A stretch of DNA of 64,000 nt. It comes from Sediminicoccus rosea. GTDB lineage: Bacteria; Pseudomonadota; Alphaproteobacteria; Acetobacterales; Acetobacteraceae. A program made the position numbers and the translations under genes. Positions within the stretch are counted from its first letter, which is position 1, and each line of letters opens with the position of its first letter. This document shows positions 11,562 through 42,745 of the stretch, one piece after another. The stretch spans positions 3,279,501 to 3,343,500 of the forward strand of contig NZ_CP137852.1 in NCBI RefSeq assembly GCF_033547095.1. Direction: 5' to 3'. Below the pieces are notes generated by a model that saw nothing but the letters and a program-made list of their open reading frames with translations, was not told the DNA's origin and searched no databases.

Positions 11562-11588
11562 ATCGATCCTTGAGGCGCGTCCCTGCCT

Positions 11589-11604
11589 CGCAGCCGGCGT
11601 GCCA
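11589..11604 (-). promoter_or_regulatory. Sigma-54 promoter for the flippase operon
   Basis: On the minus strand the sequence reads TGGCACGCCGGCTGCG, with GG and GC separated by exactly ten bases and a perfect TGGCAC -24 element. The predicted start site, near 11579, is about 18 bases before the flippase start codon. It is divergent from another sigma-54 promoter, with the palindrome at 11612-11625 exactly between them, 7 bases from each. Confidence 0.72.
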
Positions 11605-11611
11605 ACCGCCT

Positions 11612-11625
11612 TTCGCAGGCTGCGA
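11612..11625. promoter_or_regulatory. Palindromic regulator site, EPS copy 1
   Basis: TTCGCAGGCTGCGA is a 6+1+6 palindrome (TCGCAG-G-CTGCGA) with one extra base. It sits midway between two divergent sigma-54 promoters. The same 14 bases occur at 13647, with near-identical copies at 20311 and 29344. A further half-site, GCTGCGAGGCAG (minus strand), lies at 11583-11594. This is a candidate binding site for the locus's own sigma-54 activator. Confidence 0.7.
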
Positions 11626-11632
11626 CCCGCCC

Positions 11633-11648
11633 TGGCCCAAGGGTTGCA
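11633..11648 (+). promoter_or_regulatory. Sigma-54 promoter for the GT2 glycosyltransferase
   Basis: TGGCCCAAGGGTTGCA matches TGGCAC-N5-TTGCA with one mismatch and has GG-N10-GC spacing. The predicted start is near 11658, some 17 bases before the ATG at 11675. A GAAGGAG ribosome binding site lies in between. Confidence 0.75.
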
Positions 11649-11674
11649 GCGAGCGGCACGAAGGAGACCGCCTG

Positions 11675-12586
11675 ATGAACACGCCCGAAGTCAGCATCAT
11701 CATCCCGACCCGCAACGCCGCCGGCTGGCTGGCCCGCGCCATAGCCTCCGTGGGGCCGATGCCAGGCGCGGAGATCCTGGTGGTGGATGACGGCTCCACC
11801 GACGCGACCCAGCCCATGCTGGCCGAATTTGCCCTGCACGACCCACGGCTGCGCATCCTGACCGGCCGCGGCGAGGGCCCGGCGGCCGCACGCAACCTCG
11901 GCCTCGCCGCCGCGCGCGCGCCGCTCATCGCGTTCCTCGACGCGGATGACCGCTGGCGGCTCGGCAAGCTGGAGGCACAGCTGGCCTTCCATCAGGCGCA
12001 CCCCGAGGCCGGCTTCTCCTTCACCGACTACCGGCACATCACGGCCGAGCGCGAGGATCGCGGCACCTGCTTCGCCTTCTGGCCGCGCTTCGCCGCCTGC
12101 GTCGCAGGGCGCGAGGAGGGCTTCATGGTAGAGGCCGCCCCCGCCACGCTGCTGGCCGAGAACGTGATCGGCACCTCCACCGTCATGGCCCGCACGGAAC
12201 TGCTGCGGGAGGTGGGCGGCTTCCAGGCCGACATGGCCCAATCGGAGGATTGGGATCTCTGGCTGCGACTGGCCGCCCGCGCGCCCGTCGGCTGCCTGCC
12301 GGCGGTACTGACCGACTACACCGCGCACCGGCCCGGCAATCTTTCCGGGCAGAAGCGCGCGCGGCTTGCGGCCATGCAGCATGTGGTCCGGCGCCATGGC
12401 CCGATGGCGGCTCGGCTCGATCCCTCGGCGCTGCGCGCCTGCCGGGTGCGGCTGCTGGTCGCGGCGGCAGAGGCGGCGGCTGCGGAGGGTGCGCGGCTCA
12501 AGGCCGCGCTGCTGCATCTCGGCGCCTGGCTGCGCCAGCCGGCGCGGCGCCATGCGCGCGAAGCAGCGTCCGCCTTGCTGCGCTGA
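11675..12586 (+). CDS. Glycosyltransferase family 2
   Basis: A 303-residue GT-A fold enzyme. It begins VSIIIPTRNAAGWLARAIAS, followed by ILVVDDGSTDAT with the nucleotide-binding aspartates, GPAAARNLGLAAARAPLIAFLDADD with the metal-binding DAD, and SEDWDLWLRLA, the usual catalytic-base region. It transfers a sugar from a nucleotide donor to a lipid-linked EPS intermediate at the cytoplasmic face. It is transcribed alone from a sigma-54-type promoter and converges on the next glycosyltransferase gene with only 12 bases between stops. Donor and acceptor cannot be inferred. Confidence 0.9.
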   Translation: MNTPEVSIIIPTRNAAGWLARAIASVGPMPGAEILVVDDGSTDATQPMLAEFALHDPRLRILTGRGEGPAAARNLGLAAARAPLIAFLDADDRWRLGKLEAQLAFHQAHPEAGFSFTDYRHITAEREDRGTCFAFWPRFAACVAGREEGFMVEAAPATLLAENVIGTSTVMARTELLREVGGFQADMAQSEDWDLWLRLAARAPVGCLPAVLTDYTAHRPGNLSGQKRARLAAMQHVVRRHGPMAARLDPSALRACRVRLLVAAAEAAAAEGARLKAALLHLGAWLRQPARRHAREAASALLR

Positions 12587-12598
12587 TGGCGGGGCAGC

Positions 12599-13594
12599 TC
12601 AGTCCCGACCGGCATAGAGCTTGAGGATGCGCCCCACACCGGCCTCGCGGCTGTAGCGGGCGGCGATCGTCGCGCGCGCGGCCGCGCCCATGGCCCGCCG
12701 CGCCCCCTCCGCCATCGCGGCCCAGCTCGCCACCGCGCGGGCCAGCGCCGGCAGGTCGCCCGGCGAGGCAAGGAAGCCGTTCCGGCCCTCCTCGATCAGC
12801 TCCGGCAGGCCGCCCAGCGCGAAGGCCGCCACCGGCACGCCATGCGCCATGGCTTCCAGTGCCGCCAGCGGCAGCCCCTCGGCGCGCGAGGTGATGGCGA
12901 GCAGGCCGATCCCGGCCCAGGCCCCGCCCATCCCGGGCCGCGCCCCATGCAGCACAAGCCCCGAGACCGTGAGCGAATCCCGCATCGGGCCGTCCCCGAA
13001 CACCTCGTAGCGCGGCCCGGGCGACAGCCGGCTGAGTTCGGCGAAGAGGTCCGGTCCCTTTTCGGGAGAGAGGCGCCCCACGAAGGCGACCGTCATCGGG
13101 GCCCCGTCGGGCGGCTCAGGCGGCAGGGCCAGGAAATTCGGGATGAGTTCCCCGCCCCAGGGCAGCCGCGCCAGGATCGGCCGGCTGACGGCGATGCGCG
13201 GGTTGAGCCCGGAGGTCCAGCGATCCGCCGCATCATACAGGGCGAGCAGGCCGGGCGGCCGCTCGCCGGCATGGTAGGTGGCGACGCAGCGTGTGCCGGT
13301 CAGCCGCGCCGCGAGGCGGCCCAGCAGATTGGCCTTGTAGCCATGGGTGTGCAGCACCGCCGGCCGGCCAGCATGCAGGCGCCGCCACAGGGCGCGGAAG
13401 CCGCGGGGCAGCGCCTCCAGCGCCACGCCTTCGGCGGCGAGGCGCGCGGCCAGGGGATGCGGGCCGTGATCCTGCAGAAGCAGCACGCGCGGCATCCGCC
13501 CTGCCTCGCGCAGCCCTGCGGCCAGCTCCGCCACATGGCTCTCGATGCCGCCAAAGCCGCGGCTGTCGAGCAGAAGCCAGGTCTCGCGCGTCAT
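12599..13594 (-). CDS. Glycosyltransferase family 4-like
   Basis: A 331-residue GT-B enzyme. The N-terminal half opens TWLLLDSRGFGGIESHVAELAAGLREAG with a typical acceptor-side GGIE motif. LHTHGYKANLLGRL follows, and the C-terminal half has TVAFVGRLSPEKGPDLFAEL and SRAEGLPLAALEAMAHGVPV, the EX7E region that binds the nucleotide sugar. The start at ATG 13594 follows a strong GGAGGG site, although the open frame runs further upstream. It should add a sugar during EPS repeat-unit assembly. A minus-strand GG-N10-GC promoter lies at 13625-13640. Confidence 0.9.
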   Translation of the reverse strand: MTRETWLLLDSRGFGGIESHVAELAAGLREAGRMPRVLLLQDHGPHPLAARLAAEGVALEALPRGFRALWRRLHAGRPAVLHTHGYKANLLGRLAARLTGTRCVATYHAGERPPGLLALYDAADRWTSGLNPRIAVSRPILARLPWGGELIPNFLALPPEPPDGAPMTVAFVGRLSPEKGPDLFAELSRLSPGPRYEVFGDGPMRDSLTVSGLVLHGARPGMGGAWAGIGLLAITSRAEGLPLAALEAMAHGVPVAAFALGGLPELIEEGRNGFLASPGDLPALARAVASWAAMAEGARRAMGAAARATIAARYSREAGVGRILKLYAGRD

Positions 13595-13624
13595 CGCGCC
13601 CTCCGTCAGATGTCGCCCCCGCCT

Positions 13625-13640
13625 CGCACCTCGCATGCCG
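13625..13640 (-). promoter_or_regulatory. Possible sigma-54 promoter for the GT4 gene
   Basis: The minus strand reads CGGCATGCGAGGTGCG, which has GG-N10-GC spacing but a weaker match to the consensus. It would start transcription about 19 bases before the glycosyltransferase ATG. It lies 6 bases from the palindrome at 13647, the same geometry as at copy 1. Confidence 0.5.
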
Positions 13641-13646
13641 CCGCCA

Positions 13647-13672
13647 TTCGCAGGCTGCGAGGCAGGCTGCGA
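13647..13672. promoter_or_regulatory. Palindromic regulator sites, EPS copy 2 (double)
   Basis: A perfect TTCGCAGGCTGCGA (13647-13660) is followed by a second, overlapping copy, GAGGCAGGCTGCGA (13659-13672), with three mismatches. The pair lies between divergent sigma-54-type promoters. The first copy is 6 bases from the minus-strand -24 element and the second is 9 bases from the plus-strand one. Confidence 0.7.
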
Positions 13673-13681
13673 GGGCGGAGG

Positions 13682-13697
13682 CGGCACAGCGGTTGCA
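13682..13697 (+). promoter_or_regulatory. Sigma-54 promoter for the STAS-export-regulator operon
   Basis: CGGCACAGCGGTTGCA matches TGGCAC-N5-TTGCA except for the first base. GG-N10-GC spacing is exact. The predicted start near 13707 is about 26 bases before the ATG at 13733. Confidence 0.75.
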
Positions 13698-13732
13698 GTC
13701 CACCCGGCAGATCCCTTCCACGGAGCCCCGAT

Positions 13733-14125
13733 ATGACCGCTTTCGCACGCATCGCCGCCGACACCCTCAAGATCACCCCGCAATTCCCGCTCGATGCCGA
13801 AGGCAGCCTGAAGCTCCGTCCCGTTCTGGAAACCATCAGCGCCGTCGCCACGGCCAGTGCCCAGCGCGTGGTGCTCGACCTCTCCCAGGTTGAGGCGCTG
13901 GACGGCTCGGGCATCGGCGCCATCGCCTTCCTGCGCAAGCGTCTCGCCGCCGCCGGGCAGAGCCTGGAGCTGGCCGGCGCGCATGGGCAGCCGCTTGTGC
14001 TGCTGCGCCAGCTTGGCCTCGCCAGCGCCTTCGGCCTGAGCGAGGAGCGCCGCTCCTTCTGGGCCGGCCTGCTGCGCCCGCTTCCCGGCATGGGTTGGGG
14101 CGCCGCCCGCGGGGCCGCCGCGTGA
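13733..14125 (+). CDS. STAS domain protein (anti-sigma-factor-antagonist fold)
   Basis: A 130-residue protein with a STAS fold. A strand-helix-strand pattern runs through RVVLDLSQVEALDGSGIGAIAFLRKRL, where DLSQV-DGSG is the segment that carries the phosphorylatable serine in SpoIIAA-like proteins (S60 region). LELAGAHGQPLVLLRQLGL follows. The C-terminal 30 residues are Arg/Pro/Ala-rich and not recognised. It is the first gene of the STAS-lipoprotein-SLBB-ATPase-Hpt-regulator operon. STAS proteins of this kind occur in EPS loci, where their partner is usually unclear. No cognate anti-sigma kinase is seen in the window. Confidence 0.78.
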   Translation: MTAFARIAADTLKITPQFPLDAEGSLKLRPVLETISAVATASAQRVVLDLSQVEALDGSGIGAIAFLRKRLAAAGQSLELAGAHGQPLVLLRQLGLASAFGLSEERRSFWAGLLRPLPGMGWGAARGAAA

Positions 14126-14484
14126 GCCGCCTCGCTTCCCTCGCCCTGCTGCTGCCACTGTCCCTCGGGGCCTGCGCGAGCTGGCCCGGCGAGGGCCAGG
14201 GCGGCCTCGCGGAAATCCGCCTGCCCCCGCCGGTCGCAGAAGCCGCTCTGGAGACACGCCTTGCCTGCGCGCTCCGGCGGGTTGGCGTGCTGGAGGCGGC
14301 GGCGCGCGAGCAGGGGCGGGCCACAGGCCAGGCCAACCTGCTCCGCCTCACCGCCACTCGCGCGACGCGAGAGACGTATGGCAGTCTCCCGCGAGATGCC
14401 GGGCGGACCCTCGACCGGCTGGAGCAAGACGCGGCAAGCCTCCATCCGGTTCTGGGGGGCCCCGCACTGCCGGAGTGCACCTGA
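14122..14484 (+). CDS. Small lipoprotein of the EPS operon
   Basis: A 120-residue protein starting at GTG 14122, which overlaps the STAS stop by four bases. The N-terminus SRLASLALLLPLSLGACASW is a lipoprotein signal with lipobox LGAC (Cys at about residue 16). The mature part is short, largely helical, and contains one further Cys pair candidate (LACALRR and PECT). It is not recognised beyond being a lipoprotein. Tight coupling to the SLBB export gene downstream suggests an outer-membrane or periplasmic role in EPS export. Confidence 0.7.
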   Translation: MSRLASLALLLPLSLGACASWPGEGQGGLAEIRLPPPVAEAALETRLACALRRVGVLEAAAREQGRATGQANLLRLTATRATRETYGSLPRDAGRTLDRLEQDAASLHPVLGGPALPECT

Positions 14485-16604
14485 TGATCCGTCGCCTGGC
14501 CATTTGGATGATGGTTCTGCTGCTGGCGCTCGCCGCGCCGGCACAGGCCCAGAACGGCCAGGCCAACGGCAACCTTCGGCTGAACGTAGGCGACATCATC
14601 CAGGTGACCCTGCCTGGCGAGGAGGCCTTCGCCCAACCCTTGCAGATTGACCGCGAGGGCCGGGTGAACCTGCCCGAGGTTGGGCCGGTGGATGTCGCGG
14701 GCCTGACCGTGGCCCAGGCGCGCGACCGCGTGCGCGCCGCCCTGGCCCAATCCTTCCGTGACCTCGGCCGCTTCAACCTCACCTTGCGCGAACGCCGCCT
14801 TCTGGTGAGCGTGGGGGGGTTCGTCCGCACGCCGGGGCCGGTCGAGCTGCCGGCCGGCGCCAATGTGCAGCAGGCGATCGCTGCGGCGGGCGGCCTCAGC
14901 CAGGGCGCCCAGCTCGACCGCATGCAGGTGCGGCGCGGCAACGAGGTCATCACCTTCGACTACAAGCGCTTCCTCGACACCGGCGCACGCAACATCCTGC
15001 CCGCGCTGCGCCCGCTGGACGAGATCTTCGTCCCTGCCTCCCCGCTCACGGGCAACGTGCAGATCGATTTCGACGCACGCACCCTCGCCGCCGCCGGCGA
15101 TGCGGCGGAGGACCGCAGCGCGGTGCGCGTCTTCGGCGAAGTGCAGAGTGCCGGCAGCTTTGCCTGGCGCCAGGGGATGACGGTGATGGACGCCATCATC
15201 CGCGCCGGCGGCGTCACCCGCTTCGCCGGCACCGAGCAGGTGCGGGTCATCACCAATGGCGAGCCCCGCACCTTCAACCTCAAGGCCTTCCTCGACAGCG
15301 GCAATGCGGCGATGAACCCGCCCATCGCCGCGGGCACCACCATCTTCGTGCCGGTCCAGGCGGAGGAGGTGCGCCAGGGGCCGCGCGTCATCTATGTCAT
15401 GGGCGAGGTGGCGCGGCCGGGCGCCTTCGAGGTCCGCCCGGGCACCGGCTTCTTCGACCTGCTGGCCAATGCGGGCGGCCCCACCCGCTTCGCCGAAACC
15501 CGCCAGGTCCGCATCATCCGCGCGGATGGGCGCCGGGTGGAGCCCTTCGACCTCGGCGCCTTCATCGAAGGCGGCGGTGGCATACCTCCTGCATTGTCCC
15601 CCGGCGATGCGATCTTCGTCCCCGAAAAGACCCAACAGACCGAGCAGGCCAGTTGGCTGCGCGTGCCCCCCAGCCGGGCGGTGCGGGTGATGGGCGCCGT
15701 GCGCAACCCCGGCCGCTATGAGTGGTCGAACGAGATGAGCCTGCTCGACCTCATCGCGCAGGCCGGCGGCCCCAATGAACGGGCCGACACGGCCGGCGTT
15801 CAGATCCTGATGGGCGACCGCGGCCAGACCCGCCGCTTCGACCTGCGCCGCTTCCTGGCCGAGGGCGGCCGAGCCGGCTCGCTGCCGGAGATCCGCGCCG
15901 GCTACACGATCACCATCCCCGAACTGCCGGTCAGCCCGAGCGACCAGCGCTCCACATGGGTCGGCCAGCCGGCCGAGCGCTCGATCTACATCATGGGCAG
16001 CGTGGGCTCGCCCGGCCGCTACGCCTTCGAGCCACAGCTCTCCTTCCTCGACATCATGTCGGCGGCCGGCGGGCCTACCGCCGCGGCCGACCTGCTGAAC
16101 ATCCGCGTCGCCCACCGTGGCGAGGGTCGGGACCGCGTCAGCCGCGTGAACCTCGCGGCCTATTTCGAGAGCGGCGATGACAGCCTGCTGCCCCGCGTGC
16201 GGCCGGGCGATGTCATCTTCGTGCCGGACCGCAACCGCAACTGGCTGGAGCAGTCGCCCGGCAGCACCGTCCGGGTGCTCGGCGCAGTCAACCGCCCCGG
16301 CCGCTACCAGTTCAACGACAGCATGAACCTGCTGGACCTGCTGGCCGAGGCGGGTGGTCCGACGCGCGACGCCTGGCAGGAGCGCATCGTCGTGGTCAAC
16401 CTCTCCTGCTGCCAGGACCAGGCAAGCAGCTTCGACCTGCCGGCCTTTGCCCGCAGCGGCGACTTCACCCGCATGCCCGTCGTCCGCGCAGGAGACACCG
16501 TCTACGTGCCATCCAACACGCAGAGCGGCTGGCGCATCCTCTTCGACGCGCTGCGGGACGTGCTTCCCATCATCTCGATCATCGCGCTCATAGGAGCCCT
16601 CTGA
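14484..16604 (+). CDS. Polysaccharide export protein with six SLBB repeats (Wza-like)
   Basis: A 706-residue secreted protein with a signal peptide at residues 1-23 (cleavage after AQA). A polysaccharide-export domain (NLRLNVGDIIQVTLPGEEAF, about 30-100) is followed by six SLBB repeats starting near residues 107, 212, 302, 399, 500 and 594. Each contains a G-V-x-x-P-G core and ends in AGG. The last 25 residues (FDALRDVLPIISIIALIGAL) form a membrane helix. Wza has two such repeats and an outer-membrane helix, so this is a much longer version that could span the periplasm. It is coupled to the lipoprotein gene and followed by the BY-kinase-like gene. Confidence 0.9.
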   Translation: MIRRLAIWMMVLLLALAAPAQAQNGQANGNLRLNVGDIIQVTLPGEEAFAQPLQIDREGRVNLPEVGPVDVAGLTVAQARDRVRAALAQSFRDLGRFNLTLRERRLLVSVGGFVRTPGPVELPAGANVQQAIAAAGGLSQGAQLDRMQVRRGNEVITFDYKRFLDTGARNILPALRPLDEIFVPASPLTGNVQIDFDARTLAAAGDAAEDRSAVRVFGEVQSAGSFAWRQGMTVMDAIIRAGGVTRFAGTEQVRVITNGEPRTFNLKAFLDSGNAAMNPPIAAGTTIFVPVQAEEVRQGPRVIYVMGEVARPGAFEVRPGTGFFDLLANAGGPTRFAETRQVRIIRADGRRVEPFDLGAFIEGGGGIPPALSPGDAIFVPEKTQQTEQASWLRVPPSRAVRVMGAVRNPGRYEWSNEMSLLDLIAQAGGPNERADTAGVQILMGDRGQTRRFDLRRFLAEGGRAGSLPEIRAGYTITIPELPVSPSDQRSTWVGQPAERSIYIMGSVGSPGRYAFEPQLSFLDIMSAAGGPTAAADLLNIRVAHRGEGRDRVSRVNLAAYFESGDDSLLPRVRPGDVIFVPDRNRNWLEQSPGSTVRVLGAVNRPGRYQFNDSMNLLDLLAEAGGPTRDAWQERIVVVNLSCCQDQASSFDLPAFARSGDFTRMPVVRAGDTVYVPSNTQSGWRILFDALRDVLPIISIIALIGAL

Positions 16605-16606
16605 CC

Positions 16607-17254
16607 ATGACCCATGCCTCCGACCATCCCGAGATCGAAGCGCTCTGGCGCGGCATCGCCGGCGCCGGCAGCGTCGCCATCGCGGCCGCCCAGCCTGGCG
16701 AGGGCACCAGCATGGTGGCAGAGGCGATCTGGCGGCGGGCCGAGCATTCGGGCCGCACCGCGCTGCTGGTGCATCTCAACGGCAACAAGCCCGGTGCCGA
16801 ACCCGGCCGGCTCGAGCGCATGGGCAATCACCCGCTGGGCGAGATCGGCGCGCCGGATGCGGCCCAGGTCGCCGCCTGGCGGGAACCTGCCCGCCTGCGC
16901 GAGGCCATCGCCGAATGGCGCAGGGATTGGGACCTCGTGGTGCTCGACGCTTCACCCGTGCTGGCACGCGGCGCACAGAGCCTACCGGGGCTGACCGCCG
17001 CCGCCGCCGCTGAGGCGACGCTGCTGGTGGTGCTGGCCGGACGCACGGCCGCATCCGCCCTGCGGGAGGCGCGCGAGCGCCTGCGGGTGTCCGGGGCGAC
17101 GCTGGTGGGTGTCGCGCTCAATGATCGCGACAATCCCTCCCTCGCCATGGAACTGGAGCGGCAGGTCGCCCGCATCGGACGCGTCTTGCCAGGCCTCGCC
17201 GCCCGGCTGACGCGCGCGGTCCGCGGCTCCGCGTTGCTGGGCCTGCGCGTGTGA
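16607..17254 (+). CDS. BY-kinase-like ATPase with degenerate Walker A (CpsD/CapB family)
   Basis: A 215-residue P-loop protein matching the cytoplasmic domain of bacterial tyrosine kinases that pair with Wzz/GumC co-polymerases. IAAAQPGEGTSMVAEAIWRRA (residues 25-45) aligns with the usual SAxPGEGKS loop, but the lysine is replaced by Thr34. The second motif reads LLVHLNGN, where an aspartate is expected. Walker B-like DLVVLDASPVL is retained. No tyrosine cluster is present at the C-terminus. It may therefore be a non-catalytic regulator. The start lies three bases after the SLBB stop, and it overlaps the Hpt gene by four bases. Confidence 0.75.
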   Translation: MTHASDHPEIEALWRGIAGAGSVAIAAAQPGEGTSMVAEAIWRRAEHSGRTALLVHLNGNKPGAEPGRLERMGNHPLGEIGAPDAAQVAAWREPARLREAIAEWRRDWDLVVLDASPVLARGAQSLPGLTAAAAAEATLLVVLAGRTAASALREARERLRVSGATLVGVALNDRDNPSLAMELERQVARIGRVLPGLAARLTRAVRGSALLGLRV

Positions 17255-17577
17255 GCGCCCCCCTGCTGGATGCCGAGCACTGGGCGCAACTCGCGAGCGA
17301 CCTGCCGGCCGAGGATTTGCGCCATGTCTGCCAATTGCTCGTGCGCGACGCGCAGGCCATGCTGGCCGCCATGAGGGACGCGGAATCGGCCGGTGACACG
17401 GCGGCCTGGCAACGTGCGGCACACCGGCTGGCCGGTGGTGCCGGCGGCGTGGCTGCGCGACCTTTGGAGCAGGCGGCCCGCGCGGCCATGGAACAGCCGC
17501 CTGGTGCCGCGGCCCTTGCCGAGATCACCGGGTTGGTCGACGCCACCATCATGGCGCTCGAGGAACGGCTCGGATGA
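17251..17577 (+). CDS. Histidine phosphotransfer (Hpt) domain protein
   Basis: A 108-residue all-helical protein. The segment AAWQRAAHRLAGGAGGVAA (residues 51-69) matches the Hpt signature H-x-L-x-G-x-A-G, with His58 as the probable phospho-acceptor. It would shuttle phosphate between a hybrid kinase receiver and a response regulator. It starts at GTG 17251, overlapping the ATPase stop, and its own stop overlaps the sigma-54 regulator start by ATGA. This coupling strongly links it to that regulator. The hybrid kinase at 31242-33809 has no Hpt domain of its own and is the obvious donor (inference). Confidence 0.85.
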   Translation: MSAPLLDAEHWAQLASDLPAEDLRHVCQLLVRDAQAMLAAMRDAESAGDTAAWQRAAHRLAGGAGGVAARPLEQAARAAMEQPPGAAALAEITGLVDATIMALEERLG

Positions 17578-19139
17578 GCCAGGCGCCGCTGGTCCTCATC
17601 GTCGAGGACAGCCCGCCCCAGGTGGCGCTCGCCCAGGCCCTGCTGCGCGACCTCGGCACCCGCATCGCGGTGGCCGAGACGGCGCAGGCGGCACACGAGG
17701 CCATCACGCAGGAGGCGCCCGACGTCATCCTGCTCGATCTGGAGTTGCCCGATGGCAAGGGCATGGACCTGATGCGCCGCCTGAAGACGGAAGGCATCGA
17801 CTCCACCGTGATCGTCATCACTGCCAATGGCTCGATCGGCACGGCGGTCGAAGCGATGCGCGAGGGCGCACGCGACTTCGTGCTGAAGCCCTACAACAAG
17901 GCGCGGCTGACGGTCACGCTCAACAATGCGCTGGAAGCGCGCCGCCTGACGCAGGAATTGCAGGCGGTGAAGGCGGATCTGGCGCCGGACCGCTACCACG
18001 GCTTCATCGGCGCCTCGCCCGCCATGCGCGCGGTCTATCGCACCATCGAGAGTGTCGCGGCCTCCAAGGCCACCGTGTTCATCACGGGTGAGAGTGGAAC
18101 CGGCAAGGAACTGGCCGCGGAAGCGGTCCACCAGGCCTCGCCCCGCCGCAAGGCGCCCTTCATAGCGCTGAATTGCGGCGCCATCCCGAAGGATCTGCTG
18201 GAGAGCGAAATCTTCGGCCATGTCAAAGGCGCCTTCACGGGCGCCACCGAGAACCGCGTAGGCGCGGCCAAGGCGGCCGATGGCGGGACGCTCTTCCTGG
18301 ATGAAATCGGCGAGATGCCGATGGACATGCAGGTGAAGCTGCTGCGCTTCGTGCAGACCGGAAGCTTCACGCCCGTCGGCGCCACCCGCGCGGAGAAGGT
18401 GGATGTGCGCTTCGTCGCCGCCACCAACCGCGACATCTGGGCCGCCGTCGAGGAAGGCCGCTTCCGCGAGGACCTCGCCTATCGCCTCTATGTCGTGCCG
18501 GTGGAGATGCCGGCGCTGCGCGAGCGCGGGGCCGATGTCATCATGATCGCACGCGCCTTCCTCAAGGCCTTCGCCAAGGAAGAGCGCAAGGCCTTCCGCA
18601 GCCTCACGCCGGAGGCCGAAACGGTGCTCGCCGCCTATCCCTGGCCCGGCAATGTGCGGCAACTGCAGAACGCGATCCGCAACGCCGTGGTGCTGCATGA
18701 CGGACCCGCCCTAGAGCGCGGCATGCTGCCGCCGCAATTGCTGCGGGCGGCACCACGGGGCATGGCCGTGTCCCCCCAACCGGCAGCCCCCGTGCCGGAC
18801 GCCCCCATGCCCGCAGAACCGCTGCCCTCAGCGCCCGTGCCCTCAACGCCCTCTGGGCTACCACTGCCCGTGCCCGCAGCCGCCATCCCCGTGCCGGAGC
18901 CGGTCTTGGCCGCCCCCCTGCCCTTGGAGCCGCCCCCGAAGCCGGCCGCGGCTGCCCCGCAGGAGCCAGAATTCCTGCCGATGAAGGAAATCGAGCGCCG
19001 CGCCATCCTCGCGGCCCTCCGCCACACCCAACGCGACGTGCCGCGCGCGGCGACGCTGCTCGACATCAACCCCTCCACCATCTACCGCCGCCTCATCACC
19101 TGGCGCGAGGAAGGGACGCTTCCGCCCGAGTTCGCCTGA
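17574..19139 (+). CDS. Sigma-54-dependent response regulator (NtrC/LuxO-like)
   Basis: A 521-residue regulator. The receiver domain (1-125) has acidic pocket ED11-12, phospho-acceptor Asp55 and Lys105. The AAA+ domain (about 142-385) has Walker A GESGTGKE at 172-179, the sigma-54 loop GAFTGA at 219-224, Walker B TLFLDEIGE and the arginine-finger region. A Pro/Ala-rich linker of about 65 residues (400-466) separates it from a Fis-type helix-turn-helix (470-513). All catalytic residues are intact. It activates RNA polymerase carrying RpoN. Candidate targets are the GG-N10-GC promoters with TTCGCAG-S-CTGCGA sites in this locus, one of which drives its own operon. Confidence 0.95.
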   Translation: MSQAPLVLIVEDSPPQVALAQALLRDLGTRIAVAETAQAAHEAITQEAPDVILLDLELPDGKGMDLMRRLKTEGIDSTVIVITANGSIGTAVEAMREGARDFVLKPYNKARLTVTLNNALEARRLTQELQAVKADLAPDRYHGFIGASPAMRAVYRTIESVAASKATVFITGESGTGKELAAEAVHQASPRRKAPFIALNCGAIPKDLLESEIFGHVKGAFTGATENRVGAAKAADGGTLFLDEIGEMPMDMQVKLLRFVQTGSFTPVGATRAEKVDVRFVAATNRDIWAAVEEGRFREDLAYRLYVVPVEMPALRERGADVIMIARAFLKAFAKEERKAFRSLTPEAETVLAAYPWPGNVRQLQNAIRNAVVLHDGPALERGMLPPQLLRAAPRGMAVSPQPAAPVPDAPMPAEPLPSAPVPSTPSGLPLPVPAAAIPVPEPVLAAPLPLEPPPKPAAAAPQEPEFLPMKEIERRAILAALRHTQRDVPRAATLLDINPSTIYRRLITWREEGTLPPEFA

Positions 19140-19175
19140 GTGGCCGAGCGCGGCCAGGCGGCGTAAGCAGGGCGC

Positions 19176-20291: not shown

Positions 20292-20304
20292 GGGTCCATC
20301 GCGC

Positions 20305-20327
20305 GCTGCCTCGCAGGCTGCGAATGG
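20305..20327. promoter_or_regulatory. Palindromic regulator site, EPS copy 3
   Basis: On the minus strand, CCATTCGCAGCCTGCGAGGC-AGC matches copy 2 at 21 of 23 positions. The palindromic core TCGCAGGCTGCGA is at 20311-20323. It lies 17 bases upstream of the sigma-54 promoter of glmS. Flanking CCATCGC and GCGATGG add an outer inverted repeat (20296-20302 and 20338-20344). Confidence 0.7.
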
Positions 20328-20341
20328 AGCGAAGGGAGCGA

Positions 20342-20357
20342 TGGCACGCCGTATGCC
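20342..20357 (+). promoter_or_regulatory. Sigma-54 promoter for the glmS operon
   Basis: TGGCACGCCGTATGCC has a perfect TGGCACG -24 element and GG-N10-GC spacing, with a weaker -12 (ATGCC). The predicted start near 20367 is about 27 bases before the glmS ATG. Confidence 0.65.
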
Positions 20358-20393
20358 TTGCCTGGGGGGATTACCTTCTCAGGAGCGAATGGC

Positions 20394-22226: not shown

Positions 22227-22927
22227 GCGCGACCCTCTCCCTCAAAGCCTGGGTGAAGCGCGGCGAGCACCCCGCCGCCCGCCTCGCCTTCCGCGTCGCC
22301 AAGGCGGTCCGTAGCGCGCGCGTTCCGGTGATCCGCCCGCTGCATCAGGCGCTCTATGCCCTGCACAAGGGCGTGACGGGCGCCTGGAGCAATGCCACGC
22401 GCATCCTCTGGTGGACGCCGATGTTCCTCTCGCGCGTCGAGAACGAGGCGCCGGGCCTTTACCTCGAAGGCGGCATGCCGCTGGTGCTGGGCCCGCTGTC
22501 CATCCGCCTCGGACGTGATGTGCGGCTCTCCGCCACAACGACGCTCACCGGCCGCAGCGCTAGCGCCGCGCCGCTGCTCGAAGTGGGCAGCAATGTGGAT
22601 ATCGGCTGGCAGACCACCATCGCCGTCGGCACGCGTGTCGTGATGGGCGACAATGTGCGCCTCGCCGGCCGCTGCTTCCTCGCTGGCTATCCCGGGCATC
22701 CGCTGGAGGCCGAGCGCCGCGCGGCGGGGCTGCCCTGCGATGCGGCGCAGATCGGCGACATCATCCTGGAGGACGATGTCTGGCTCGCCAGCGGCGTGAC
22801 GGTCCTGGCCGGCGTGCGCATCGGCCGCGGCACGGTGGTGGGCACGGGCAGCGTCGTCACGCGCGACCTGCCGCCCGACGTCATCGCCGCCGGCTGCCCC
22901 GCCCGCGTGATCCGGGAGATCGGCTGA
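22223..22927 (+). CDS. Hexapeptide acyltransferase of the EPS operon
   Basis: A 234-residue protein. The C-terminal half is a left-handed beta-helix of hexapeptide repeats (VGSNVDIGWQTTIAVGTRVVMGDNVRLAGRC, then IGDIILEDDVWLASGVTVLAGVRIGRGTVVGTGSVVTRDLPPDV) ending with AAGCPARVIREIG, as in serine/galactoside O-acetyltransferases. The N-terminal 90 residues are basic and unfamiliar. It should acylate a sugar of the EPS. It is coupled to glmS by an ATGA overlap, and its stop overlaps the next gene's start. Confidence 0.85.
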   Translation: MSATLSLKAWVKRGEHPAARLAFRVAKAVRSARVPVIRPLHQALYALHKGVTGAWSNATRILWWTPMFLSRVENEAPGLYLEGGMPLVLGPLSIRLGRDVRLSATTTLTGRSASAAPLLEVGSNVDIGWQTTIAVGTRVVMGDNVRLAGRCFLAGYPGHPLEAERRAAGLPCDAAQIGDIILEDDVWLASGVTVLAGVRIGRGTVVGTGSVVTRDLPPDVIAAGCPARVIREIG

Positions 22928-24036
22928 TGGCGCATGACCTGATCGTGTTCGGCGAGGATTGGGGGGCGCATCCCTCCTCCAGCCAGCATCTGGTCTCGCA
23001 TATGGCGAAAGAGCGCGAGGTGGTTTGGGTGAACTCCATCGGCCTGCGCAAGCTCAGCCTCTCGATGGGCGATGCCACGCGCGCTGTGCGCAAGCTGGGT
23101 GCCGCTTTCCGCCGCAAGGCGCCGGCTCCGCGCGTGGCCGCCCCGGGCCCGGTGGTGCAGCCGCTCGCATTGCCGATGGCCGAGAGCCGCATGGGCCGCG
23201 CGGTCAACCGCGCACTGATCGGCGGCAAGGTCCGCATGGCCGCCGCCGGCCTGAAGCGCCCCGTGGTCTGGGCCGCCCTCCCCTCCGCCGTCGCGGCGCT
23301 CGGCGCGCTCGGCGAGCACGGGGTGGTCTATTACTGCGGCGATGACTTCTCGGCGCTCTCCGGCGTGGATCACGCCGCCGCCCAGCGTATGGAAGCGGAA
23401 CTGGTTTCCCGCGCCGACCTGATCCTCGCCGCCAGCGAGATGCTGGCCTCGCGCTTTCCCGCGCACAAGACGCGCCTGCTGCCGCATGGCGTGGACGCCG
23501 CGCTGTTCGGCACACCCGTACCCCGCCCGGCCGACATGCCCGAGGGCGGCCCGGTCGCCGGCTTCTATGGCAGCCTAGCCCCCTGGATTGACCTCGACCT
23601 GGTGGCCGCCACGGCACGGCTCCTACCCGAATGGCGCTTCGTGATGATCGGCGCGGCCCAGACCGACCTTTCCGCCATCGAGGGCATCGGCAACGTTCAT
23701 CGCCTGGGCGCGCGACCGCATGCGGCGCTGCCCGGCTATGCGCAGCATTGGGATGCCGGGATCATCCCCTTCCGCGACACGCCGCAGATCCGCGCCTGCA
23801 ACCCACTGAAGCTGCGCGAATATCTCGCATCTGGCCGGCCGGTGGTCAGCACCGATTTTCCTGCCCTGAACGGCTACCGTCACCTGATCCAGGTGGCGCA
23901 GACGCCGGAGGGGTTCGCCGCTGCCCTATGCGCAAGCCTCACCGACACCGACGGCCCGGGCCGCCAGGCCGCCGTCGCCGCCCAGTCCTGGGCCGCCCGT
24001 GCCGCTGAGGCCGCCGCCTGGATAGACGCGCTGTGA
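22927..24036 (+). CDS. Glycosyltransferase (GT-B, family 1/4-like)
   Basis: A 369-residue GT-B protein. It opens DLIVFGEDWGAHPSSSQHLVSHMAKEREVVWVNSIGLRK, a form common in EPS glycosyltransferases. YYCGDDFSALSGVD and LPHGVDAALF lie centrally, and the C-terminal half shows VAGFYGSLAPWIDLDLVAATARLLPEWRFVMIG and IPFRDTPQIRACNPLKLREYLASGRPVVSTDF. The last segment is the nucleotide-sugar-binding region. It is the third gene of the glmS operon, with overlaps at both ends. The sugar is unknown. Confidence 0.87.
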   Translation: MAHDLIVFGEDWGAHPSSSQHLVSHMAKEREVVWVNSIGLRKLSLSMGDATRAVRKLGAAFRRKAPAPRVAAPGPVVQPLALPMAESRMGRAVNRALIGGKVRMAAAGLKRPVVWAALPSAVAALGALGEHGVVYYCGDDFSALSGVDHAAAQRMEAELVSRADLILAASEMLASRFPAHKTRLLPHGVDAALFGTPVPRPADMPEGGPVAGFYGSLAPWIDLDLVAATARLLPEWRFVMIGAAQTDLSAIEGIGNVHRLGARPHAALPGYAQHWDAGIIPFRDTPQIRACNPLKLREYLASGRPVVSTDFPALNGYRHLIQVAQTPEGFAAALCASLTDTDGPGRQAAVAAQSWAARAAEAAAWIDAL

Positions 24037-26309: not shown

Positions 26310-26366
26310 CCCCGCAGAGCGCGCCTAGGACCAGAGGGGCGCGCCCTCGCGCGGGAGACGAGTTTC

Positions 26367-26822
26367 GTGAAGCCCACCCTGTCTTGCCTGATCCTGCTCG
26401 CGCTGGCGGCCTGCGCCGCGCCCGATCCGCTGCGCGCCATCCCCGGCCATGAGCGAACCATGCTGCAGGCAGAGGCCCGCCAAGCGACCGGTCGCGACCG
26501 CCGATCCGCGGTGGACGCCATTCTGGCGCGCGCCCGCGCCAATGACCCCGCCCCTCTCGCGCTTCGCTTTCCCGGCACTGTGACAACCCCGGATGCCGCC
26601 CAGCGCGAGGCCGTAGCGCGCTTCGCCGCAGCCGCACGCGGGGCTCCGCGGCTCGTCGTCCAGGCCCGCCAAGGCGGCGGCGGAGAGATGCTCGGTCCGC
26701 GCCGCGCCGTTGCCGTCGCGCGCCTGCTGGAGCCTGACTTCGCGCAGGTGGACATCCAGTTCGACCTGCAGGTGCCGCCCGACACCATCCGTATCCTCTT
26801 GCCCACAGAGCGTGCCCGATGA
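26367..26822 (+). CDS. Lipoprotein of the GumC-glycosyltransferase segment
   Basis: A 151-residue protein from GTG 26367. KPTLSCLILLALAACAAPD is a lipoprotein signal with lipobox LAAC (Cys16). The mature part has a short helical stretch (HERTMLQAEARQATGRDRRSAVDAILARARAN), then PRLVVQARQGGGGEMLGPRRAVAVARLLEP, resembling OmpA/CpaD-like peptidoglycan-side folds in spacing only. It is not firmly recognised. It overlaps the GumC gene by ATGA, so a partner role in EPS export at the envelope is likely. Confidence 0.65.
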   Translation: MKPTLSCLILLALAACAAPDPLRAIPGHERTMLQAEARQATGRDRRSAVDAILARARANDPAPLALRFPGTVTTPDAAQREAVARFAAAARGAPRLVVQARQGGGGEMLGPRRAVAVARLLEPDFAQVDIQFDLQVPPDTIRILLPTERAR

Positions 26823-28264
26823 GCGCCGCGCCCCCGCTCTCCGAAATCATCCACGCGCTGCTGGCCGCTGGTTGGCGCCGCCGCTACCTGATCATCGTGC
26901 CGCTGCTGCTGCTGCCCGTGCTGGGCGGCCTGGTCGGCAGCTTCGTGCCGCACTCCTACGAGACGCGCATGTCGGTCCTCGTGCAGGAGCCCGGCCGCTT
27001 CAATCCCTTCCTGGAGGACCTCTCGGTCCGCTCCAACCTGCGCGACCGAATGGATGGGCTACGCGCCCTGCTCACCTCACGCCATGTGCTGCTGAGCGTC
27101 GCCGAAGACCTTGGCATGGTGCAGCCTGGCGCCGGCGAGGCCGAGCAGTCCCGCGCTGTCTCCGCACTCGCCTCCTCCGTCTCGGTGCAACTCATCGGCC
27201 AGGAGATGGTGGAACTCCGCTACCGGGCGCGGCGGCCCGAGGGCATTGACCGCGTGCTGGCGCAGATCGGCCAGCGCTTCATCGAGCGCGTGCGCGGCCC
27301 CGAGGACGCATCGCTGCGTGACAGCGTCGCCTTCCTCGGCGGTCAGATTCAGGACGCGCAGAATGCGCTGAACCACGCAGAACAGGCACTCTCCAGCTTC
27401 AAGTCCCGACATGCGGCACAACTCCCCGACATGCGGGCGGCCAACCTCCAGCGCCTGGCACAGATGCGCGAGCAACTGGCCGAGCGCGAGGTGCGCCTCG
27501 CCGGCGCCGAGGCCGAGATCGCCTCCATCTCCAGCCGCCTCCTGCAGACCGACCCGGTGATCGGGCGGCTGGAGCAAGACATCGTGGCCGCTCGGGGCGA
27601 ACTCGCCCTGCTGCGGAGCCGCTATACCGATGCCCATTCGCGCGTGCAGGCCGCCCTCAACCGCGCCGAGAGCCTGGAGCAGGAGCGTGACAGCCACGTC
27701 GCCCGCAGCGGCATCGCGATGGACGACACACGGCTGCGTAACATCGCCTCGGTCAGCACCACACGTGGCGACGGCGCCCAGCCGCTCCTGGTCAGCCAGG
27801 TCGCCATCCTCGATCAGGCGCGCGCGCGGCTCGGCCAGCTGCGCGGCGAGACGGAGAGCCTGCGTAGCGCCGTCACCGACCTCGCGCGCCATGTCGCGAA
27901 TTCGGGGGAGGTGGAGCGCGAGTTGCGCGGCCTGGAGCGTGACGTGGCGGTCCAGGCCGACCTCACGCAGCAATTGCGCCGGCGCTTCGAGACGGCGCGC
28001 GTCACGGCCGACCTCGCGCGGCAGCAGGCACCCGAGCGCATCAAGGTCATCGACCGCCCCTTCGAGCCGACGGCACCGATCAAGCCAATGACAATGATCT
28101 TCGCCCTTGCCGGCATCGTAGCAGGTCTGGCGCTGGGCATCGGCCTCGCCGCCCTGTTCGACCTGATGGATGGTTCGCTGCGCGGCATCCGCGCCACGGA
28201 GAAACTGCTCGGTGTGCCGGTCCTGGCGCGGCTGCCGCGCGCCAGGCAGGAGATGCCGGCATGA
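26819..28264 (+). CDS. GumC/Wzz family chain-length determinant (polysaccharide co-polymerase)
   Basis: A 481-residue inner-membrane protein. TM1 is at about 25-46 (IIVPLLLLPVLGGLVGSFV), and a Wzz-type periplasmic domain begins YETRMSVLVQEPGRFNPFLEDL. Long coiled coils span about 175-290 and 335-400. TM2 near the C-terminus (MTMIFALAGIVAGLALGIGLAALFDLMDGSLRG) precedes a short cytoplasmic tail. KVIDRPFEPTAPIKP just before TM2 is the usual GumC/Wzz Pro-rich motif. It controls EPS chain length and links polymerase to export. The cytosolic tyrosine-kinase-like domain is not fused here but encoded separately at 16607. Confidence 0.9.
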   Translation: MSAAPPLSEIIHALLAAGWRRRYLIIVPLLLLPVLGGLVGSFVPHSYETRMSVLVQEPGRFNPFLEDLSVRSNLRDRMDGLRALLTSRHVLLSVAEDLGMVQPGAGEAEQSRAVSALASSVSVQLIGQEMVELRYRARRPEGIDRVLAQIGQRFIERVRGPEDASLRDSVAFLGGQIQDAQNALNHAEQALSSFKSRHAAQLPDMRAANLQRLAQMREQLAEREVRLAGAEAEIASISSRLLQTDPVIGRLEQDIVAARGELALLRSRYTDAHSRVQAALNRAESLEQERDSHVARSGIAMDDTRLRNIASVSTTRGDGAQPLLVSQVAILDQARARLGQLRGETESLRSAVTDLARHVANSGEVERELRGLERDVAVQADLTQQLRRRFETARVTADLARQQAPERIKVIDRPFEPTAPIKPMTMIFALAGIVAGLALGIGLAALFDLMDGSLRGIRATEKLLGVPVLARLPRARQEMPA

Positions 28265-29376
28265 GCGGCGCAGTCATCCACGTTGTGCAGCACCTGAGCC
28301 CCGGCGGGCTGGAGGTCATGGCCCTCGAGCTTGCCCGGGCGCAACAGGCGCAGGGTCGGCCCGCGCTGGTGCTGAGCCTGGAGGGCAACCTGGAGACGGC
28401 CATCGCGCATTGGCCGCGCCTCGCGGGCCAGCGCGAGCAATTGCTCTTCGCCGCCAAGCGGCCAGGCCTTGATCCGATGCTGATGCCGCGCCTGATTTCG
28501 CTGTTCCGGCGCCTCCGCCCGGCGGTGGTCCATACCCATCACGTGGGCCCCATGCTCTATGCGGGTACCGCCGCGCGCCTGGCCGCCGTGCCGGCCCGCC
28601 TGCATACCGAGCATGACGCCTGGCACCTCACCGATCCCAAACGACGCCGCCTCGTGCGCCTGGCGCGGCGCTTGATGGCGCCGGTGATGATCGCCGATGC
28701 GCCACATGTCGCCCAAAGCGTGGCCGAGGCGCTCGGCGGAACCCCACCTGTCATCGTCATGAACGGCGTGGACACCGAGCGCCTGCGGCCGCGGGACCAG
28801 GCCGCGGCCCGCCACGCCCTCGGCCTGCCTGACGGACAGCGTCTGCTCGGCATCGCGGCGCGGCTGGAGCATGTGAAGGGCGTGGACGTGGCCTTGGAGG
28901 CGCTGCGCCTCTTGCCGCGTGACGTGCATCTGGCCATCGCCGGTGGGGGGAGCGAGGCGACAGCGCTGCGCGCCCAGGCGAGCGCGCTCGGGATCGCGGA
29001 TCGGCTGCATTGGCTCGGCGTGATGGACGACATGTCGCGATTCTACCCGGCCCTCAACCTGCTGCTGGTGCCCTCGCGGCATGAGGGACTGCCGCTGGCG
29101 CCGCTCGAGGCGCAGGCCTGCGGCATCCGCGTGGTGGCCACGAATGTCGGCGGCACCGCGGCCGGCATCTGCCCGAGGACAGGCCAGCTCGTGACGGCGG
29201 AAGATCCCGCCGCCTTGGCCGGCGCCGTCCTGCTCGCTCTCGAGGGAACGGGCGATCCGCGTCCCTTCGTGCTGCGCGAGGCCAGCCTTGATGCGGCGGC
29301 ACGCGCCTGCCTGACGCTCGCTGCGCCCAAATTCCGCGCGCCCATCGCAAGCTGCGAGGCAGCGCGCGAGAGCTAA
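28261..29376 (+). CDS. Glycosyltransferase family 4
   Basis: A 371-residue GT-B enzyme. The N-terminal half has VIHVVQHLSPGGLEVMALELARAQ and VVHTHHVGPMLYAG. The C-terminal half has LGIAARLEHVKGVDVALEALRLL, HLAIAGGGSEATAL, and PSRHEGLPLAPLEAQACGIRVVATNVGG with the EX7E motif. It adds a sugar during EPS unit assembly. Coupled to gumC by ATGA, it is the last gene of the glmS operon. Its final codons contain copy 4 of the regulatory palindrome (29341-29363), so regulatory DNA for the next operon lies inside this coding sequence. Confidence 0.9.
   Translation: MSGAVIHVVQHLSPGGLEVMALELARAQQAQGRPALVLSLEGNLETAIAHWPRLAGQREQLLFAAKRPGLDPMLMPRLISLFRRLRPAVVHTHHVGPMLYAGTAARLAAVPARLHTEHDAWHLTDPKRRRLVRLARRLMAPVMIADAPHVAQSVAEALGGTPPVIVMNGVDTERLRPRDQAAARHALGLPDGQRLLGIAARLEHVKGVDVALEALRLLPRDVHLAIAGGGSEATALRAQASALGIADRLHWLGVMDDMSRFYPALNLLLVPSRHEGLPLAPLEAQACGIRVVATNVGGTAAGICPRTGQLVTAEDPAALAGAVLLALEGTGDPRPFVLREASLDAAARACLTLAAPKFRAPIASCEAARES
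29341..29363. promoter_or_regulatory. Palindromic regulator site, EPS copy 4 (inside a gene end)
   Basis: The core ATCGCAAGCTGCGA (29344-29357) and flank GGCAGC match copy 2 at 19 of 23 positions. It lies in the last codons of the GT4 gene, 20 bases upstream of the -24 element of the next operon's promoter. Confidence 0.6.
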
Positions 29377-29377
29377 G

Positions 29378-29393
29378 CGGACCCGCACTTGCA
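29378..29393 (+). promoter_or_regulatory. Sigma-54 promoter for the GT2-sugar transferase operon
   Basis: CGGACCCGCACTTGCA has GG-N10-GC spacing and a perfect TTGCA -12 element; the -24 is weaker. The predicted start near 29403 is about 26 bases before the ATG at 29429. Confidence 0.62.
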
Positions 29394-30577: not shown

Positions 30578-30600
30578 GACAACAACCGGAGACAACCGAC

Positions 30601-36196: not shown

Positions 36197-36206
36197 GGGG
36201 CATCTC

Positions 36207-38837: not shown

Positions 38838-38961
38838 TCGCACCGGTCGGTTTCGGCATTGCCGGCCGACGTCCTACGAGAGGCAGCAATCCAGCTCGCG
38901 TGGCATGCACTACGACCAGACGAAGCTGGAGCCTCGGTCTGGCCAGGCCAATCTGCCGTGG

Positions 38962-41505: not shown

Positions 41506-41556
41506 GCAACCCTAACCTCGAGCTTCTGTGTCCCATCCGTCCGGCCAGCGCCCTAC

Positions 41557-42567: not shown

Positions 42568-42745
42568 TCGCGCCTCCCTCCTTCGCATGCCCGGGATTCA
42601 GCCCGAGAATCTGTTAGCACTTGACGTGGCACGTAGGTGAGTAAATCAATAGCCCACCGTCCGCTATCATGCCAAGATTCTGCGGATATCTCCCAAGAGC
42701 AGTACGCCTGTGGCGGTTGGGCTGCGGACGAGTTAGAGGCGGGGT

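Follow-up and report, generated by a model that had tools for sequence, protein, structure and literature searches.

Evidence for a palindrome-marked sigma-54 regulon at a syp-type polysaccharide locus of Sediminicoccus rosea

The polysaccharide locus and its palindromes

We have analysed a 64,000-nucleotide stretch of DNA from Sediminicoccus rosea (Acetobacteraceae; contig NZ_CP137852.1, positions 3,279,501 to 3,343,500; hereafter the window), in which a locus for exopolysaccharide (EPS) synthesis carries four copies of a palindrome with the 13-bp core TCGCANNNTGCGA, each beside one or two sigma-54-like promoters (Table 1). From 8753 to 33809 the genes encode, in order, a polymerase and a flippase (both minus strand), a GT2 and a GT4 glycosyltransferase (the latter minus), a STAS protein, a small lipoprotein, an SLBB/Wza protein, a Wzc-like ATPase, an Hpt protein, a sigma-54 activator, an RlmL-like methyltransferase, GlmS, an acetyltransferase, a glycosyltransferase, a 758-residue protein, a second small lipoprotein, a chain-length protein, two further glycosyltransferases, a priming transferase and a hybrid kinase. 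This order is collinear with that of Vibrio-like loci and identifies the polysaccharide locus as one of the syp type. For a sigma-54 EPS regulon with the palindrome as its mark, support on sequence grounds is strong: the palindrome recurs in other genera together with the promoter, the spacing and the gene set.

An initial annotation of this DNA had placed all four palindromes and all six GG-N10-GC elements correctly. The core occurs four times in the window against 0.12 expected from dinucleotide shuffles, and the core with GG-N10-GC no more than 30 bp away gives seven matches (the six promoters, c1- twice) against 0.13. On its own, GG-N10-GC is found 1836 times against 1827 expected, which is chance level, and thus the promoter motif by itself is no evidence. 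The copies at 20311 and 29344 had both been called near-exact; this holds for the second, which is exact for the core only, but the first is an exact 14-mer on the minus strand. Aligned with copy 2 at their best 23-mer match, these two agree at 21 of 23 positions (20311, as first reported) and at 20 of 23 (29344, where 19 had been given). Predicted starts, counted on the sequence, lie about 15-24 nt ahead of the start codons, where 17-27 nt had been given.

Table 1. Palindromes, sigma-54-like promoters and genes of the polysaccharide locus (window coordinates)
Feature	Position	Strand	Sequence, evidence or remark
Wzy/O-antigen ligase-like polymerase (syp L position)	8753..10150	-	Pfam Wzy_C; tblastn to Vibrio-like loci
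Wzx flippase (syp K)	10143..11561	-	Pfam Polysacc_synt; comparison with Vibrio-like loci
Promoter c1-, sigma-54-like	11589..11604	-	TGGCACGCCGGCTGC; gap to core 9 bp; toward Wzx/Wzy genes
Palindrome copy 1	11612..11625	+	TTCGCAGGCTGCGA; common to divergent promoters c1- and c1+
Promoter c1+, sigma-54-like	11633..11648	+	TGGCCCAAGGGTTGC; gap to core 8 bp; toward GT2 gene
GT2 glycosyltransferase	11675..12586	+	Pfam
GT4 glycosyltransferase	12599..13594	-	37-39% identity to the gene following the activator in 7 Vibrio-like loci
Promoter c2-, sigma-54-like	13625..13640	-	CGGCATGCGAGGTGC; gap to core 8 bp; toward GT4 gene
Palindrome copy 2	13647..13660	+	TTCGCAGGCTGCGA; common to divergent promoters c2- and c2+
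Promoter c2+, sigma-54-like	13682..13697	+	CGGCACAGCGGTTGC; gap to core 22 bp; toward STAS-activator operon
STAS-domain protein (SypA position)	13733..14125	+	Pfam STAS; comparison with Vibrio-like loci
Small lipoprotein-like protein	14122..14484	+	Sequence; conserved in G005 and G015; start uncertain
Wza-type export protein with SLBB domains (SypC)	14475..16604	+	Pfam; TIGR03027 193 bits (cut-off 180); 47-51% to Vibrio-like loci
Wzc/BY-kinase-like ATPase (SypD)	16607..17254	+	Weak NCBIfam matches below cut-off; comparison with Vibrio-like loci
Hpt phosphotransfer protein	17251..17577	+	Pfam Hpt
LuxO/SypG-type sigma-54 activator	17574..19139	+	Receiver, AAA+ with GAFTGA, long Pro/Ala linker, Fis-type helix-turn-helix (NPSTIYRRL)
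Palindrome copy 3	20311..20324	-	Exact TTCGCAGCCTGCGA (TTCGCAGSCTGCGA)
Promoter c3, sigma-54-like	20342..20357	+	TGGCACGCCGTATGC; gap to core 19 bp; toward glmS operon
GlmS	20391..22226	+	TIGR01135 603 bits, above cut-off
Acetyltransferase (SypM position)	22223..22927	+	Profile match; comparison with Vibrio-like loci
Glycosyltransferase	22927..24036	+	Profile match; comparison with Vibrio-like loci
Polysaccharide chain-length protein (SypO)	26819..28264	+	TIGR03007 211 bits (below cut-off 279); comparison with Vibrio-like loci
GT4 glycosyltransferase (SypP)	28261..29376	+	Profile match; comparison with Vibrio-like loci
Palindrome copy 4	29344..29357	+	ATCGCAAGCTGCGA
Promoter c4, sigma-54-like	29378..29393	+	CGGACCCGCACTTGC; gap to core 21 bp; toward GT2/priming transferase genes
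GT2 glycosyltransferase (SypQ)	29429..30577	+	Pfam; comparison with Vibrio-like loci
Priming sugar transferase (SypR)	30175..31239	+	Pfam Bac_transf; 59% to homologue in L356; true start probably near 30570
Hybrid histidine kinase, two receivers	31242..33809	-	Pfam; candidate phosphodonor via Hpt

Recurrence of the palindrome and promoter

Across the 5.14-Mb genome the core is found seven times (four for the reversed pattern) and the exact 14-mer four times, three in the window and once at C1:3589763. With the looser promoter GG-N9-TGC there are seven matches, at five of the seven cores (reversed control, three), and the cores at 939062 and 1804978 gave no promoter match in this search. The loose promoter matched in 20 of 60 genomes and its one-base-shifted form, GG-N10-TGC, in 13 of 60 (own genome 0, control 1), so the loose pattern discriminates little at the whole-genome level.

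A fifth promoter-linked site is formed by the core at C1:3589763, which lies about 280 kb away from copy 4 and is followed by TGGCACGCGCCTTGC at a core-GG gap of 1 bp. The product of the next gene is an Npun_F0296 exosortase-dependent surface protein (81.5 bits; cut-off 29). The gene after that may tentatively be read as a divergent exosortase; its own product matched no NCBIfam model, and that of its orthologue in G015 scored 16.4 bits, below the cut-off of 23. This exosortase-like gene, which here adjoins site 5, is present in four of five same-genus genomes with a detected locus and in none of the 16 others (Fisher p 8e-4, uncorrected for relatedness and with several genomes incomplete). 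The regulon had been described as self-contained; this distant site, and the sites before PEP-CTERM genes in other genera, argue otherwise.

Within the genus, the locus is syntenic in G005 and G015 (in G015 over several contigs), with fragments in G017 and G019. The c1 gaps of 8 and 9 bp recur in both G005 and G015, the c2 gaps of 8 and 22 bp and the c4 gap of 21 bp in G005, and the 1-bp gap of site 5 in G015. The glmS promoter has a gap of 10 bp in all four of these genomes as against 19 bp here. As a separate observation, G005 carries a 386-residue GT4-like gene (L251) between palindrome copy 1 and the flippase gene (L087:4820-6032), which is missing at the corresponding place in the window (11561-11612).

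To look further afield, we scanned 299 genomes for a strict composite, the core followed by GGCAY-N6-TGC. Outside the S. rosea genome, which has five, there were 20 at gaps of 0-24 bp; at 25-55 bp there were 20 (reversed control 2) and at 56-86 bp seven (reversed control 3). A looser pattern gave 56 listed matches in the same genomes against 26 for its reversed control. The genes that follow composites belong to a familiar set: STAS genes at four loci (L142, L144, L145, L150), all four products exceeding the Pfam STAS cut-off; glmS, identified by translation and partly by tblastn (L147, L151, L152, L155); epimerases (L110-L113) and a flippase, named from translation; glycosyltransferases; and four secreted proteins with PEP-CTERM tails, of which those of L117, L148 and L154 exceed the Pfam cut-off and that of L126 reaches 19.5 of 20.7 bits. 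Palindrome and promoter also stand before glmS operons at L181, L182 and L183 and before activator operons at seven loci (L167, L175, L176, L177, L178, L184, L185), the four STAS-led loci being counted in the activator-operon set as well.

Other matches look like chance, among them composites before a GroES-like gene (L157), an integrase-like open reading frame (ORF; L153, L158) and a solute-binding protein gene (L141). Betaproteobacterial matches at a constant 10-bp gap (L187, L200, L206, L207, L216, L245, L255, L256) and likewise L268, L270 and L283 were judged to be chance too; they lie in what we take, from the translated sequence, to be transketolase coding DNA. Separately, Magnetospirillum and Terasakiella (L191, L192) share a response-regulator gene that follows the same core and a sigma-54-like promoter, with gaps of 22 and 21 bp; a related regulon may thus exist beyond the family.

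Spacing between palindrome and promoter

The initial annotation had described a fixed geometry, but the spacing is stepped: the gaps from core to GG are 1, 8-9 and 19-22 bp in this genome, and across the family they move in steps of about 10 bp. Among 40 strict matches from other genera, an unselected set, 37 fall at 7-12, 18-22, 27-31 or 36-43 bp and the rest at 0, 46 and 52 bp. The best period is 10.1, with a permutation p of 5e-5 at 10.5 bp, and the 26 matches with TGGCAY give p 9e-4, neither test being corrected for relatedness. A list of 39, reduced by hand to one entry per lineage, gene and gap and including eight from the own genus, gave a best period of 10.3 and 0 of 20000 permutations; this list is a selected one, and its test is likewise uncorrected for relatedness. 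From this list we dropped the gaps of 0 (G250), 7 (G278, where a sugar transferase follows), 18 (G183), 27 and 28 (G119), 27 (G297), 36 (G280), 46 (G110, GroES-like) and 52 (G104), together with L212 and L232. Entries from G203, G248 and G209 C897 and the second G157 promoter were retained despite an unclear gene, and c1+ and c4 (looser promoters), L219, L224, L241 and L242 were added.

A contig scan served as a control; its 117 listed loci were sorted into taxa from their record titles and the genes downstream, a matter of judgement. All 22 Acetobacteraceae-type matches (20 loci) lie in the registers, with 11.4 expected, although 14 of these 20 loci apparently come from contigs or isolates already among the 40 matches or in the genus and are not independent support. 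In other taxa, with the transketolase matches collapsed to one and L291 (gap 19, no ORF seen) kept, 48 of 87 are in the registers against 45.1 expected (p 0.54), and there is thus no phasing.

The same gene can be followed from one register to another. By lineage, the gap before glmS is 10, 18, 19, 29, 30 or 40 bp and that before the STAS/activator operon 20, 21, 22, 29, 30 or 42 bp; nothing speaks more strongly for action of the site on one face of the helix than such differences of about whole turns between related promoters. What is new here is a site whose end lies only 1-43 bp ahead of the -24 GG, the distance changing by steps of about 10 bp, with one gene differing by about whole helical turns between lineages.

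This arrangement departs from the canonical distant enhancer, for which PMC7057263 gives a usual distance of about 100-150 bp upstream, with looping; here the core ends 1-22 bp before the GG. A separate repressor might instead use the palindrome as its operator and block the sigma-54 polymerase, with the activator bound at another site. Its closeness to the polymerase footprint (a gap of 1 bp at site 5 and of 8-9 bp at c1 and c2-) would fit such a role, as would the sharing of one palindrome by divergent promoters and the existence of several clade activators lacking a nearby exact core. However, the site matches the SypG site class and the activator the corresponding helix-turn-helix class (see below), helical steps out to about 43 bp exceed the needs of a simple steric block, and no other DNA-binding regulator was recognized among the ORFs scanned, which were not all of those present. 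We therefore regard a repressor as quite improbable. If the palindrome is bound by an activator, these promoters may form an Acetobacteraceae class in which the site abuts the promoter (one to four helical turns away, on a constant face), the AAA+ ring would be brought straight to sigma-54 by a tethered linker with no DNA loop, and one palindrome would serve two back-to-back promoters; to this proposal as a whole we give slightly less than an even chance.

The activator, its probable site and related systems

The comparison with Vibrio rests on an activator search of 398 genomes of the phylum, 45 of which had a match at 1e-105 or better. Eight of these 45, all from one genus of family f75, have two activators each; f75 is assumed from gene content to be Vibrionaceae, and seven of its loci were taken around the less similar, full-length activator (the Vibrio-like loci of Table 1). 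STAS, SLBB and activator genes come in this order in all seven, with a Wzc-like match between them in six and an Hpt match in one (L345); only in L345 with its extension L356 does the full run reach a priming transferase (59% identical).

Syp-type (scv) loci have been reported from 26 gammaproteobacterial and two alphaproteobacterial genera, Elstera and Terasakiella, and Acetobacteraceae are not named in the portion of PMC8941931 that lists them; among the open-licence papers listed by a literature search there was none about the palindrome and none about syp-type loci of Acetobacteraceae. According to PMC5801674, PMC10804989 and PMC10162802, the Vibrio syp/scv/eps clusters with SypG share with our locus the order STAS, small protein, Wza, Wzc-like, phosphotransfer and activator at the start, and chain-length protein, two glycosyltransferases and priming transferase at the end (in the V. 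diabolicus eps cluster, O, P and Q, and R, respectively; PMC5801674). They also have in common several sigma-54 operons, four in the V. fischeri syp locus, with SypG sites (PMC10804989), and sites of the TTC-NCA-NNN-TG type. In contrast, here there is a separate Hpt gene, Wzx/Wzy and one glycosyltransferase are on divergent operons, glmS lies inside the locus, and a target outside it precedes an exosortase-dependent surface-protein gene. SypE, a second response regulator acting on SypA, was found nowhere among the Pfam-scanned ORFs of the window, which do not include every ORF; the legend to the V. diabolicus cluster in PMC5801674 does not list it either.

The published SypG site is TTCTCANNNTGMDWN and the LuxO site TTGCAWWWTGCAA, as quoted in PMC10162802. 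In the best orientation c1, c2 and c3 depart from the former only at position 4, where G replaces T, and c4 at two positions, and the mismatches to the LuxO site number four to five. Thus, the palindrome, which had been thought not to be a described binding site, is counted as a variant of the described SypG/LuxO upstream activating sequence, and it looks like one of changed specificity, the half-site being TTCGCA here and TTCTCA in Vibrio syp. Of the seven f75 loci, five have a TTCTCANNNTGARA site before a TGGCAY-type promoter; the distance to the GG from sites of this kind and their close variants is 50-73 bp (47 to 128 bp for some pairs with looser promoters), unlike the 1-43 bp of this locus and its family. 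Beside this, LuxO-like palindromes (TTGCAAATTGCAA, TTGCAATTTGCGA) form a cluster in G613 (L355:15746-15784), 68 and 43 bp ahead of TGGCATGTCGGTTGC, which is perhaps an intermediate form of the site.

The GAFTGA regulator noted initially is indeed present: the protein encoded at 17574-19139 has Pfam Sigma54_activat, Response_reg and HTH_8 domains with GAFTGA in its sequence, as expected of a bacterial enhancer-binding protein. By sequence its closest solved relative is LuxO (5ep0). The recognition helix reads SPST[ILV]YRK in Vibrio-like activators and NPST[IV]YR[KR] in nearly all those of Acetobacteraceae (the exception, G030, has SASTIYRK), and in a FastTree tree, branch support values left aside, the Acetobacteraceae activators form one clade beside LuxO/SypG-like proteins. 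LuxO itself, whose Hpt partner is LuxU, shares the domain order, a similar helix-turn-helix and a palindrome with a CANNNTG centre. It differs in its site, in its targets, which here are EPS genes, and in its linker: that of the EPS activator has about 57 Pro/Ala-rich residues and that of LuxO about two. Among Acetobacteraceae linker length and gap correlate negatively, a post hoc and non-significant trend (Spearman -0.49, p 0.09, 13 genomes; -0.55, p 0.08, without G005 and G015) which Vibrio-like activators, with long linkers and gaps of 50-73 bp, do not fit.

From these likenesses the 17574-19139 protein would be the likeliest binder of the palindrome, and we consider it probable that this LuxO/SypG-type activator has its upstream activating site in the palindrome of its own syp-type locus. 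Several observations weigh against this view. The protein falls below both NCBIfam cut-offs, for LuxO (NF041946, its best match; 553.7 of 800 bits) and for PrsR (TIGR02915; 374 of 502.6). In three same-genus genomes the palindrome has a single mismatch, at copy 2 (G015) or at site 5 (G005, G019). Given the usual enhancer distance cited above, a gap of 1-22 bp to the GG is unusual for an activator's site and would suit a repressor too. Moreover, of 20 wider stretches, eight picked by activator and 12 by motif, eight have an exact core near an activator, but seven of the eight picked by activator have none (L168-L174, of which L173 holds a STAS-Hpt-activator operon). The activator clade as a whole thus does not regularly have an exact core close by; some of the genomes with coreless stretches (G095, G110, G203) have strict composites elsewhere.

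A last difficulty is a paralogous Hpt-activator pair at C1:909108-910337 of the own genome (G000; L094:8739-10488), whose activator could bind the same site and might, alone or jointly with the EPS activator, be its main occupant. It is 67% identical to the EPS activator over residues 6-421, its recognition helix (NPSTIYRKL for NPSTIYRRL) is nearly the same, its linker is of about seven residues, and it is present in 14 of 20 other same-genus genomes (E 1e-90 or better). Yet there is no exact core in the 19 kb around it; 11 same-genus genomes have the paralogue and no detected EPS locus, and nine of them lack any palindrome-promoter match, the other two (G003, G008) having one loose match each; and in the seven loci of other genera with the palindrome before an activator operon, the activator belongs to the clade of the EPS protein. 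We thus judge this alternative unlikely, if less so than a repressor.

The PEP-CTERM targets raise the question of PrsK/PrsR, a system linked to PEP-CTERM genes of EPS producers in which PrsR is likewise a sigma-54-dependent response regulator (Haft 2006; PMC1569441). Were it to run the regulon, sigma-54 control of PEP-CTERM genes through a response-regulator activator, common to both, would be accounted for. However, profile searches of the own genome gave no PrsR match above the cut-off, which largely refutes this explanation, and PrsR is patchy in the genus (G001-G020), being over cut-off in nine of 20 other genomes. Furthermore, PrsR belongs to another regulator family with a different recognition helix, and its motif 1, according to the same paper, ends in TTTACA with a longer spacer of 32-92 nt. 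We find control by PrsK/PrsR scarcely credible. Two genomes of the genus, G005 and G015, carry both PrsR and the syp-type activator.

Regulation by the syp-type activator would then run as follows. A hybrid kinase, probably that at 31242-33809, would pass phosphate to the Hpt protein and so to the activator, which when phosphorylated would bind TCGCANNNTGCGA through its Fis-type helix-turn-helix. By the spacing statistics the bound protein would sit upstream of the -24 GG, mostly on one helical face, at a distance of 1-22 bp in this genome and of as much as 43 bp elsewhere in the family. The long Pro/Ala linker would let the AAA+ ring reach sigma-54 with the helix-turn-helix bound nearby, although SypG-like proteins have long linkers too and their sites are further off; as the AAA+ domain and GAFTGA suggest, the activator would drive open-complex formation by the sigma-54 polymerase. 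Its predicted targets are its own STAS-to-activator operon, the flippase/polymerase, glmS-EPS and glycosyltransferase operons and the distant surface-protein gene. With the activator operon among the targets positive feedback is likely, and the polysaccharide and the exosortase-dependent surface protein would switch on together.

Syp-type loci and the SypG-type site were known already, and the apparent novelty is the Acetobacteraceae variant with its unusual promoter geometry. Of the regulon as initially proposed, the palindrome-marked sigma-54 EPS core has stood, and its self-containment, the novelty of its site and its fixed geometry have been given up. The analysis places a syp-type biofilm system in Acetobacteraceae and links that system, in the absence of PrsR, with exosortase/PEP-CTERM surface proteins. 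It also supplies a natural series of orthologous sigma-54 promoters in which the activator site is shifted by about whole helical turns, so that the question of whether sigma-54 activators need a DNA loop becomes directly testable.

Some neighbouring genes deserve mention. The 758-residue protein (24033-26309), with a signal-peptide-like start, had no match in Pfam and NCBIfam scans or, by tblastn, in the Vibrio-like stretches, and is conserved within glmS-EPS operons of other genera (49-50% in L181 and L182). The RlmL/Trm14-like methyltransferase gene (19176-20291) occupies the same place between activator and glmS in G005, G015, G017 and G019. Finally, the genes for a DNA methylase, a type III restriction-like helicase, a subtilase with an AAA ATPase and a serine recombinase that follow at 34646-44505 suggest a mobile island adjoining the EPS locus.

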